Below, piece after piece: positions 43,779-46,089 of a stretch of 64,000 nt of DNA. The stretch's first letter is position 1. Each line of letters opens with the position of its first letter. A program made the translations under genes and the position numbers. Source of the stretch: Actinomycetes bacterium (GTDB lineage: Bacteria > Actinomycetota > Acidimicrobiia > Acidimicrobiales > Ilumatobacteraceae). Under the pieces are notes generated by a model. The model was not told the origin of the DNA and made no database searches. It was given only the letters and a program-made list of their open reading frames with translations. The stretch spans positions 1 to 64,000 of the forward strand of contig JAIXWJ010000002.1 in the NCBI GenBank assembly GCA_027491335.1, written 5' to 3'.

Positions 43779-44954
43779 TCAGGCCGTCCTCAGCCAGGCG
43801 ATCGGTTGCCGCGGAGTGATTCGCTCGCCGTCGACGGCGATGAAGGCCTGCAGGATTCCGGCGAAGGCGGAGCGCACCTCGGCATCGCCGACGGTTCCGA
43901 TGATCGTTCCGATCTCGATGATCGCTCCGGGCAGCAATTCCGGTCGGGGGCTGAAGATTCCGGCGGCGGGACTGACGACCAACCGTTCGACCGCGAACAG
44001 GTGCTCGCCTTCCAATTGTGCGGGCGAGGTGGGCGAGGAGCTGTTCACCCACTCGATGAATTTGTCGAGATCGTCCGGAGTGGCGATGGAAATCGTGCGT
44101 GCACCGTCGATGGTCCTCTTGGCCATCCCGGTGAGCACCCCTCCGGGTCCGAGCTCGGCGAAGCTGGTGACACCCAGTTCCGACAGGCTGGTCAGACATT
44201 GACGCCAGCGCACCGGGCTCGAGAGTTGTGCCGAGAGCAGGCTGGCCCATTCGTCGCCTCGATCATGGGCGGCGGCGTCGACGTTGGAGATGACCGGCAC
44301 GTCGGTGTCACGGGGATTTGCGGCGGCGATCGCCTGACGCAGATGATCCCGCGCCGGAGCCATGAACGGAGTGTGGAAGGCCCCCGACACCGGCAAAGGC
44401 ATGGCCTTTTTCGCCCCCAACTCCTTGGCGATCTCGATCGCCTTGGCCACACCGTCGGGTGAGCCGGCGATGACGATCTGTCCGGGAGCGTTGAAGTTCG
44501 CCACCCACACGTCGGAGTCGGCTCGGCGACAGGCGACCTCCACCAACTCGTCATCGAGTCCGAGAATCGCCGACATCGTGCCCGGATTGGATGTTCCCGC
44601 CACGTGCATGGCATCGGCGCGTTCGCACACCAGCCGAACCCCATCGTCGAAACCGAGGGCACCGGTGGCGGTGAGGGCCGTGTACTCGCCAAGGCTGTGG
44701 CCGGCACAGAAACTCGGCTCCACTCCGAGCCGTTCCACCGCGTCCAGGACCATCAGGCTGGACACGAAGGTGGTGAGTTGGGCGTTTCGGGTGTCCTTCA
44801 ATTCATCGGCATCGGCGTCGAGGAGCAATCGCGCGACGTCGCGTCCGGCGACTTCGCTGGCCTCGGACACCAGTTCCCACGAATCGTGGTCGGCCCACGG
44901 ACGACCCATTCCGGGCCGTTGCGAGCCCTGACCGGGGAAAGTGAATGCGAGCAC
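43779..44954 (-). CDS. fabD: Malonyl-CoA:ACP transacylase with C-terminal lipoyl-like domain
   Basis: The N-terminal ~310 residues are FabD: FPGQGSQ at 6-12, the nucleophile in GHSLGEY (Ser87), the catalytic His in SGAFHTPFM, and GPGGVLTGM. The last 66 residues (326-391) are an added module that resembles a biotinyl/lipoyl hammerhead (VVSPAAGIFSP, then IIEIGTIIGTV, AFAGILQAF, GERITPRQPIAWL) but lack the MKM lysine. FabD proteins are normally about 310 aa. GTG 44954 lies seven bases after TAAGTT (minus strand). It is the first gene of the fab operon. Confidence 0.92.
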   Translation of the reverse strand: MLAFTFPGQGSQRPGMGRPWADHDSWELVSEASEVAGRDVARLLLDADADELKDTRNAQLTTFVSSLMVLDAVERLGVEPSFCAGHSLGEYTALTATGALGFDDGVRLVCERADAMHVAGTSNPGTMSAILGLDDELVEVACRRADSDVWVANFNAPGQIVIAGSPDGVAKAIEIAKELGAKKAMPLPVSGAFHTPFMAPARDHLRQAIAAANPRDTDVPVISNVDAAAHDRGDEWASLLSAQLSSPVRWRQCLTSLSELGVTSFAELGPGGVLTGMAKRTIDGARTISIATPDDLDKFIEWVNSSSPTSPAQLEGEHLFAVERLVVSPAAGIFSPRPELLPGAIIEIGTIIGTVGDAEVRSAFAGILQAFIAVDGERITPRQPIAWLRTA

Positions 44955-45048: not shown

Positions 45049-45121
45049 GCCCCGGTAGCCCAACGGCAGAGGCAGCGGCTTCAAACTCCGTACGGTGTGG
45101 GTTCGAATCCCACCCGGGGCA
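45049..45121 (+). tRNA. Class I-shaped tRNA with CAA anticodon (Leu-type), unusual
   Basis: A 7-bp acceptor stem (GCCCCGG / CCGGGGC), a 3-bp D stem, a 5-bp T arm (GTGGG, TTCGAAT, CCCAC) and discriminator A form a clear tRNA. No CCA is encoded. The anticodon loop TTCAAAC gives CAA at 45082-45084, but its stem has a C.U mismatch next to the loop and a G.U pair. The variable loop is only five bases, whereas bacterial tRNA-Leu has a long variable arm. A UCA reading with a shifted loop is possible but pairs worse. It may be a divergent or degenerate tRNA. Confidence 0.7.
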
Positions 45122-45151
45122 CAACATTCTCTTTTTCCGTACACTGCCGAC

Positions 45152-45436
45152 ATGGGTCGGCGTCTGATCGAACGTCGTCTGCGAGACGTCGGAGCTCGAT
45201 TACGAACGTTGCGAGCGTCGCTCGCGGTGGCCGAGGAGCAACTCGAGCATCTCGCCGCCGAGGCCGAGGACAAAGGTCTGAAAGCACTGGTCTCGGAGAC
45301 ACCCGGAGCCGACCTCGAGTATCGGGAGGCGCGCCGCCACGCCGACGCCATGGTGCGACATCGAGACGCGGTGAAGGCGTCGATCTCGGAACTGGAAGCC
45401 CGTCAGGATCAACTGCTGGACCAACTGGGTTCCTGA
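45152..45436 (+). CDS. Coiled-coil protein of unknown function
   Basis: The 94-aa highly charged protein is almost entirely helical, with heptad-like spacing from about residue 5 to 90 (for example LRTLRASLAVAEEQLEHLAAEAED). It has no membrane segment or recognised domain. TACACT ends six bases before ATG 45152, so it is likely a leaderless gene. It lies between the tRNA and pdtaR. Confidence 0.7.
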   Translation: MGRRLIERRLRDVGARLRTLRASLAVAEEQLEHLAAEAEDKGLKALVSETPGADLEYREARRHADAMVRHRDAVKASISELEARQDQLLDQLGS

Positions 45437-45510
45437 TCGGGTCGGCGAATCGTCGGGGGTTCGACGGTCACGATCGATGGGCGAGTGCGTCGGGATGGTT
45501 GAATGTCGGC

Positions 45511-46089
45511 GTGAGCGTTCGTGTGGTCATCGCCGAGGACGAGGCAATCATTCGCCTCGACCTGAAAGAGACCCTCGAAGAGGAGGGCTACACGGTCATC
45601 GGCGAAACGGGTCGCGGAGATCAGGCACTCGAACTGGTCCGATCGCTGCAGCCCGACTTGGCGATTCTGGACGTGAAGATGCCCGGGATGGACGGCCTCG
45701 AAGTGGCCAAGGTCATCGGCGACGAACGTATCTGCGGAGTCCTCGTGTTGACCGCGTTCAGTCAACGAGAGATCATCGAGCAGGCACGCGACGCGGGTGC
45801 GCTCGCCTATCTCGTCAAGCCGTATCAGAAGAGCGATCTCATCCCGGCGATCGAGGTGGCGATCGGGCGTTTCCGTGAACTGCAGGCGTTGTCGGGCCAT
45901 GTCGACGCTCTCGGGGAGCAATTGGAGGCCCGCAAGTTGATCGATCGGGCCAAGGGTCGCCTCATCGACGAATTCGCCATGAAAGAGCAGGACGCTTTCT
46001 CCTTCATCCAGCGGACCGCGATGAAGGAGCGCTCCAAGATGCGCGAGGTCGCCGAGCGAATCATCTCCGGCGAACTTCGGCCGTCCTGA
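45511..46089 (+). CDS. pdtaR: ANTAR-type response regulator, PdtaR-like
   Basis: The 192-aa regulator has a receiver domain (IAEDEAIIRLD acidic pair, phospho-acceptor in AILDVKMPGMDG, Lys in VKPYQ) and a C-terminal ANTAR RNA-binding domain (LIDRAKGRLIDEF, then AFSFIQRTAMKERSKMREVAERI). PdtaR-type proteins control transcription antitermination on RNA hairpins. GTG 45511 is six bases after TTGAAT. The gene lies just upstream of polA, as in mycobacteria. No cognate histidine kinase is adjacent. Confidence 0.92.
   Translation: MSVRVVIAEDEAIIRLDLKETLEEEGYTVIGETGRGDQALELVRSLQPDLAILDVKMPGMDGLEVAKVIGDERICGVLVLTAFSQREIIEQARDAGALAYLVKPYQKSDLIPAIEVAIGRFRELQALSGHVDALGEQLEARKLIDRAKGRLIDEFAMKEQDAFSFIQRTAMKERSKMREVAERIISGELRPS

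Follow-up and report, generated by a model that had tools for sequence, protein, structure and literature searches.

A leucine tRNA gene with an unusually short variable loop lies in the 64,000-nucleotide stretch of DNA analysed here (the window), on a contig from an actinobacterium of the Ilumatobacteraceae. We put the probability at roughly 93% that it yields a working, UUG-decoding tRNA-Leu with a class I-like core, charged by the cell's one LeuRS. According to this explanation the molecule would have lost the long variable arm and had its core of D stem and variable loop rebuilt in class I fashion, while the elements that bacterial LeuRS reads were retained; it is presumably expressed, and the single LeuRS would charge it alongside four class II tRNA-Leu. 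It would also have taken the place of a class II tRNA-Leu(CAA) at the same chromosomal site, and it would be one member of an arm-less ("class I") family whose members carry the leucine anticodons in one genome or another and are frequent in the tRNA arrays of phages and plasmids. The observations that bear on this are the sequence of the gene, its conservation and covariation, the leucine-only anticodons of its family, mutual exclusion with class II forms, a shared locus, and the use and meaning of the UUG codon.

The gene and its conservation

ARAGORN reports a single tRNA in the window, Leu(CAA) at 45049-45122 on the forward strand, and RF00005 of Rfam matches 45049-45121 of the same strand with 54.0 bits (E 7.9e-09; gathering score 29), which bears out the complete cloverleaf and the CAA anticodon of the original prediction. 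Read from the sequence, the cloverleaf is of the 7/3/5/5 form, with acceptor stem GCCCCGG/CCGGGGC, a D stem of 3 bp (GCC/GGC), anticodon arm GCGGC-UUCAAAC-UCCGU and T arm GUGGG-UUCGAAU-CCCAC, position numbers being assigned by analogy. The variable loop has the five bases that had been noticed at the outset, which places the molecule with the class I elongators as defined by RF00005 (7/5 cloverleaf, variable loop of 4-5 nt) and outside the tRNAs with a long arm of at least 10 nt. Its D arm has A14, A15, G18G19 and the GGNAGA loop in common with the class II tRNA-Leu of the same genome, but carries C12-G23 and C13 where those have G12-C23 and G13; likewise, A9 and A26 stand against G9 and G26. 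The features of the locus are collected in Table 1.

Table 1. Features of the tRNA locus and its neighbours (window coordinates).
Feature	Position	Strand	Remarks or basis
fabD, divergent upstream neighbour	43779..44954	-	synteny anchor; 39% identical to E. coli FabD
Class I (short variable loop) tRNA-Leu(CAA) gene	45049..45121	+	ARAGORN, Rfam, conservation, covariation
D arm GCC-C-AAC-GGCAGA-GGC	45058..45073	+	sequence, comparison with own-genome tRNAs
Anticodon CAA, reads UUG	45082..45084	+	ARAGORN, sequence; loop register set by relatives with paired 31-39
Variable loop ACGGU, 5 nt, ends in U48 (Levitt partner of A15)	45092..45096	+	sequence, alignment
Frame with response-regulator gene	45097..46089	+	true start well inside the frame
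Discriminator base A73	45121..45121	+	sequence, own-genome comparison
94-aa ORF of unknown function, between tRNA and response regulator	45152..45436	+	synteny anchor; conserved in order
polA, 23 TTG codons	46142..48841	+	DNA polymerase I matches in PDB: 6vde, Taq

Two further peculiarities had been pointed out, and both are real. The letters 3′ of A73 are CAA, so that CCA is not encoded; this absence is uninformative because relatives with an identical tRNA (L003, L007, L009, L012 and others) do encode CCA. At the base of the anticodon loop, C31 faces U39 (45079/45087), and this mismatch is a local quirk: the corresponding bases are U.U in the other congeners read and a U-A pair in three members of the family that belong to other genera (G029, G036 and G035), whose loop is CUCAAAC with U at 33 and CAA at 34-36.

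The mismatch, the lack of CCA and the short variable loop could all be taken as signs of a decaying tRNA-Leu copy heading for loss. Such a fate is hard to reconcile with the fact that the tRNA is matched over its full 73 nt at 95% identity or better in 24 of the 24 congeneric genomes searched, and is identical in 12 of them, or with an alignment of 12 relatives in which compensatory change on both sides is seen at 14 of 20 stem pairs (a degree of covariation reached by 0 of 500 shuffles). In that alignment, 97.9% of the cells are paired, and A14, A15-U48, G18G19 and the extra D-loop base A20a are invariant. The gene has only the one mismatch, and no other tRNA with its anticodon was found for a codon that accounts for 27% of leucine codons, so that decay strikes us as exceedingly improbable. 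Matches to the exact core are found on Acidimicrobiia and Ilumatobacteraceae contigs, and conservation and covariation together take the tRNA gene far beyond chance.

Against the covariation evidence must be set the minimum-energy fold of the bare window RNA, which is not the cloverleaf but an alternative D/anticodon fold; bare tRNAs often prefer non-cloverleaf folds on thermodynamic grounds. A scan limited to promoters of the sigma-70-like type, together with a search for terminators, found neither near the gene. Judged by its sequence, 45049-45121 is a genuine tRNA gene, and the tRNA appears functional by every test of this kind that was available.

Leucine identity and the meaning of UUG

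A 2023 review gives the identity of E. coli tRNA-Leu as A73, A15-U48, G18G19, A20a and loop-loop contacts, adds U8-A14 as an identity element in Aquifex tRNA-Leu, and states that the sequence and folding of the long arm are uncorrelated with leucylation in E. coli, where arm-less variants are still active (PMC9976931). The premise of the original prediction that LeuRS expects a long arm was therefore too strong for bacteria. The published elements A73, A14, A15-U48, G18G19 and the GGNAGA D loop are all present in the window tRNA, which shares them, together with a leucine anticodon and a 3-bp D stem, with bacterial class II tRNA-Leu; the GGCAGA version of the loop is identical in the window tRNA and the class II Leu of its own genome. 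What sets it apart is the variable loop of 5 nt as against about 15.

The Rfam search of its own genome (an assembly 94.6% complete) gave 41 tRNAs, all of which were read. The leucine tRNAs with CAG, UAA, GAG and UAG anticodons are class II molecules of 83-87 nt, each having a long arm. For CAA, no leucine tRNA gene was found but the short-loop one of the window, and the normal class II tRNA-Leu(CAA) that it had been proposed to look for is not among the 41. Other genomes give similar inventories. G019 (97% complete, 7 contigs, all 9 class II matches read) has class II CAG, GAG, UAA and UAG with class I CAA; G035 (99% complete, one contig, all 8 class II matches read) has class II UAA, CAG and GAG with class I CAA and UAG. 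Among complete genomes of other families, G399 has class II GAG, CAG and UAG with class I UAA and CAA, and G508 has class II GAG (two), CAG, UAA and UAG with class I CAA. Only one form of each leucine anticodon was found in each of these five genomes. G508 (L354 and L421), which looks Streptomyces-like because we take its class II UAA gene to resemble bldA of Streptomyces, thus employs a class II tRNA for UUA and a class I tRNA for UUG within one genome.

Among the leucine codons of 53 predicted ORFs of the window, an uncurated set picked by length and GC3, 453 of 1684 (27%) are TTG and 9 are TTA, and UUG is thus one of the most-used leucine codons of the bacterium. The class II Leu(UAA) could also decode it by wobble. 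The meaning of the codon was assessed by aligning nine proteins (polA, uvrA, uvrB, uvrC, fabD, fabF, fabG, fabH and rpsA) with those of E. coli K-12 and taking the columns with good local context: TTG falls on an E. coli leucine in 49/77 columns, as frequently as CTG (54/99) and CTC (71/126), while the columns of GTG, ATG, TTC and ATC are leucine in 9-20%. Since TTG aligns to leucine as CTG and CTC do, UUG means leucine in this bacterium.

These data bear on the possibility that another synthetase charges the window tRNA and that UUG is ambiguous or reassigned in the lineage. The window tRNA lacks the long arm that marks bacterial tRNA-Leu as class II, and among the 41 tRNAs of the genome A15, U48 and A73 occur jointly in the window tRNA, in three class II Leu and in Lys(CUU) only. 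The latter (L065) is the sole non-leucine tRNA with this combination, and it is without the leucine-type D loop. Given that the D loop of the window tRNA is of the tRNA-Leu and not the Lys type, that TTG columns behave as leucine columns, and that tallies made blind to the anticodon are purely leucine (see below), we regard charging by another synthetase as very unlikely. One full-length LeuRS above the cut-off was found in 17 of the 18 genomes checked, G196 being the exception with a LeuRS short of full length on its contigs. One LeuRS per genome is circumstantial evidence for the charging of the window tRNA, and is consistent with the cell's single LeuRS charging tRNAs of both shapes.

An arm-less family and its chromosomal site

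Arm-less leucine tRNAs form a large family in Acidimicrobiales, other Actinomycetota, phages and plasmid tRNA arrays. A covariance model built from 12 of them was run on 298 genomes of Acidimicrobiales. Of the 90 loci read, 89 contain a tRNA whose variable loop is short and whose anticodon (CAA, UAA, UAG or CAG) belongs to leucine. The match at L173 (70.1 bits) was rejected as a member, the locus holding other tRNAs, and matches near 70 bits were not counted for this reason. Within the family there is free variation in the acceptor and anticodon stems, and what mostly persists is the D arm CCCAA-N-GGNAGAGG, the CAGU that ends the variable loop, and A73. Of 396 genomes searched across the phylum, 129 have a match at E 1e-14 or better, the weakest of which may be other tRNAs, a part of the matches having been read. 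In four Acidimicrobiales loci (L157, L158, L159, L187) a class I Leu(CAG) sits with many odd isoacceptors in dense tRNA arrays, which are likely to be mobile elements. At L164, a class I tRNA-Leu(UAG) with the loop UUUAGGG was miscalled Pro(AGG) by ARAGORN, and L422, also a tRNA-Leu(UAG) with this loop, was miscalled tRNA-Pro(AGG), the pair being one class II and one class I gene; automatic inventories will misplace such tRNA-Leu(UAG) genes.

A pattern that required YAR as the anticodon would have been circular, so the family was also searched with the D arm and CAGU fixed and the anticodon left free. In viral contigs, 78 of 78 distinct cores among the matches listed have leucine anticodons (UAA 31, UAG 19, CAA 16, GAG 7, AAG 4, CAG 1), as do 58 of 58 matches in actinobacterial chromosomes outside the order (44 UAA, 14 CAA). 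Inside the order there were 77 matches, of which 39 strings (37 distinct) were tallied by script as UAG 18, UAA 9, CAA 7 and CAG 3, and inspection by eye found no other anticodon among the remainder. The core of D arm and CAGU thus predicts leucine, and these counts are underestimates because the exact pattern misses even the window's own gene, with its loop ACGGU.

Further evidence comes from the distribution of the two classes. In 74 genomes, class II tRNA-Leu was sought with D-arm patterns, one for CAA and one for UAA/UAG, and set against the class I genes that had been read; both forms of one anticodon were found together in 0/14 cases for CAA, 0/23 for UAG and 0/36 for UAA (corrected). 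The Fisher probabilities of 3e-6, 1e-12 and 3e-6 (corrected), respectively, are overstated, the genomes being related and not independent. An apparent coexistence for UAA (1/36, in G180) was rejected when the class II pattern match proved not to be a tRNA, and the class II UAA-like matches in G180, G301 and G069 are no tRNAs. Neither form was matched in 20/74 genomes for CAA, 8/74 for UAG and 22/74 for UAA (corrected), from which it follows that the strict class II patterns miss some genes.

Two other roles can be weighed against these results. A tRNA-like RNA with a non-decoding role, be it a regulator or an aminoacyl donor in a non-ribosomal reaction, has nothing found in its favour except the unusual class, and is scarcely credible for a molecule whose anticodon stays leucine while its acceptor and anticodon stems drift, and which excludes the decoding class II form one for one. 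A decoder of opal (UCA) or selenocysteine is suggested by the UUCAAA of the window tRNA, which we take to resemble the anticodon loop of bacterial tRNA-Sec. In relatives, UCA is preceded by C and not U (GGU-CUCAAAC), the UCA register breaks the 5-bp anticodon stem, and sister genes carry UAA, UAG and CAG. Allo-tRNAs and tRNA-Sec have long arms, whereas the window tRNA has none and shows 7/5 acceptor-T geometry. This reading, which had been thought to fit poorly from the start, is now discarded as next to impossible. Of the alternatives first entertained for the gene, the divergent tRNA stands, and the degenerate gene and the tRNA-like RNA with another role have given way, the one to conservation and covariation, the other to the retention of a leucine anticodon.

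Returning to the arm-less leucine tRNA as the preferred reading, its history can be approached through its site. Class II tRNA-Leu(CAA) genes occupy the place between fabD and the 94-aa ORF and response regulator in G024 and G025, of the same family, and in G052 and G059, of the same order. The T arm of the window tRNA is identical in 17 of 17 positions to those of the class II genes of G025 and G052, its acceptor and anticodon arms are close to those of the class II gene at the matching site, and the main changes relative to these two genes are the long arm itself and core positions 9, 12, 13, 23 and 26. Three changes of class are required on a FabD tree built from 17 loci plus E. coli, and well-supported branches force at least two of them; the site has thus seen more than one change of class in its tRNA. 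As to direction, class I may have replaced class II here. Class I matches also adjoin the response regulator in several distant families of the phylum. The 94-aa ORF adjoins the tRNA in many Acidimicrobiales, and no NCBIfam match was found for its longer frame; the response regulator in the frame at 45097..46089 is presumably PdtaR-like.

The family is well represented outside chromosomes. The window tRNA matches 144 viral records and its UAA version 274, not all of them necessarily class I. In the stretch seen of Felixounavirus LTH02, three leucine tRNAs are all short-loop, and in Mycobacterium phage Bonray two are short and one is long. Plasmids pA of Kovacikia minuta (L400) and pRUMAL01 of Ruminococcus albus (L401) carry arrays with short-loop leucine tRNAs, some of which bear a class II type D arm, which suggests a second, independent route to arm loss. 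Among the tRNA-Ser of the viral loci 0 of 53 were short, so what is seen in the leucine tRNAs is not a general loss of the arm. In four viral contigs (L373, L374, L376, L281), a class I tRNA-Leu has the anticodon AAG, which would want A34-to-inosine editing.

It is possible, though on the whole unlikely, that the resident class II gene was converted horizontally by an arm-less tRNA-Leu of phage or plasmid-array origin, as opposed to losing its arm in place. The same core of D arm and variable loop is common in such arrays, and the class at this site has changed at least twice. Against this stand the identical T arm and the closely similar acceptor and anticodon arms of the same-site class II gene, which would confine any conversion to the D arm and variable loop, and the presence of class I genes at the response-regulator site across the phylum. 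A broader and more doubtful idea is that the arm-less leucine tRNAs are a coherent mobile bacterial lineage in phage and plasmid arrays, maybe spared, for want of the long arm, by host or toxin nucleases that recognise class II leucine tRNAs, and that this lineage has been repeatedly domesticated as the only UUG, UUA or CUA isoacceptor across Actinomycetota.

Known systems and what the family means

A close parallel in shape is the animal mitochondrial tRNA-Leu(UUR), whose short variable loop and mismatch beside the loop in the anticodon stem recall the window tRNA, and whose identity is said to rest on A73 and A14, with a weak anticodon stem (PMC9976931). The window tRNA differs from it in being bacterial and in having canonical D and T loops, and arm loss in the two probably had independent origins. 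Allo-tRNAs and tRNA-Sec likewise have a shape unusual for the amino acid assigned to them, but their geometry is 8/4 or 9/3, in contrast to 7/5 and a short loop (PMC7609411).

Within Actinomycetota, one sentence of a 2019 paper notes that the variable loop is short in a Mycobacterium tRNA-Leu(TAG) encoded in a tRNA gene cluster, which is the only earlier mention of a short-loop bacterial tRNA-Leu that was found in open PMC papers; that tRNA is an array extra beside a normal gene, whereas the window gene is the only CAA gene and lies at a core site (PMC6582537). The arrays of LTH02, Bonray, pA and pRUMAL01 also include tRNA-Leu without the arm, in many of which the D-arm core is that of the window tRNA, and differ in the same way: their copies are supplementary, and the window gene is a lone core gene. 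Altered arms in array tRNAs have been noted in another paper (PMC12803027). No description of an arm-less tRNA-Leu as sole chromosomal isoacceptor was found in open PMC papers, and the 2023 review calls the long arm of tRNA-Leu universal outside animal mitochondria (PMC9976931).

The spread of arm-less tRNA-Leu in related bacteria and phages means that the textbook rule of tRNA shape has many exceptions. Whole bacterial families make use of arm-less leucine tRNAs, among them the complete genomes G399 and G508 from outside the order, and in G399 such tRNAs serve both UUA and UUG. The purpose of the long arm thereby becomes a natural experiment, with both shapes in one cell, where we infer that the same LeuRS must handle them, and with the class switched at least twice at one locus. 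The family also bears on tRNA annotation, on the design of orthogonal tRNAs and on what phage arrays gain from unusual leucine tRNAs.
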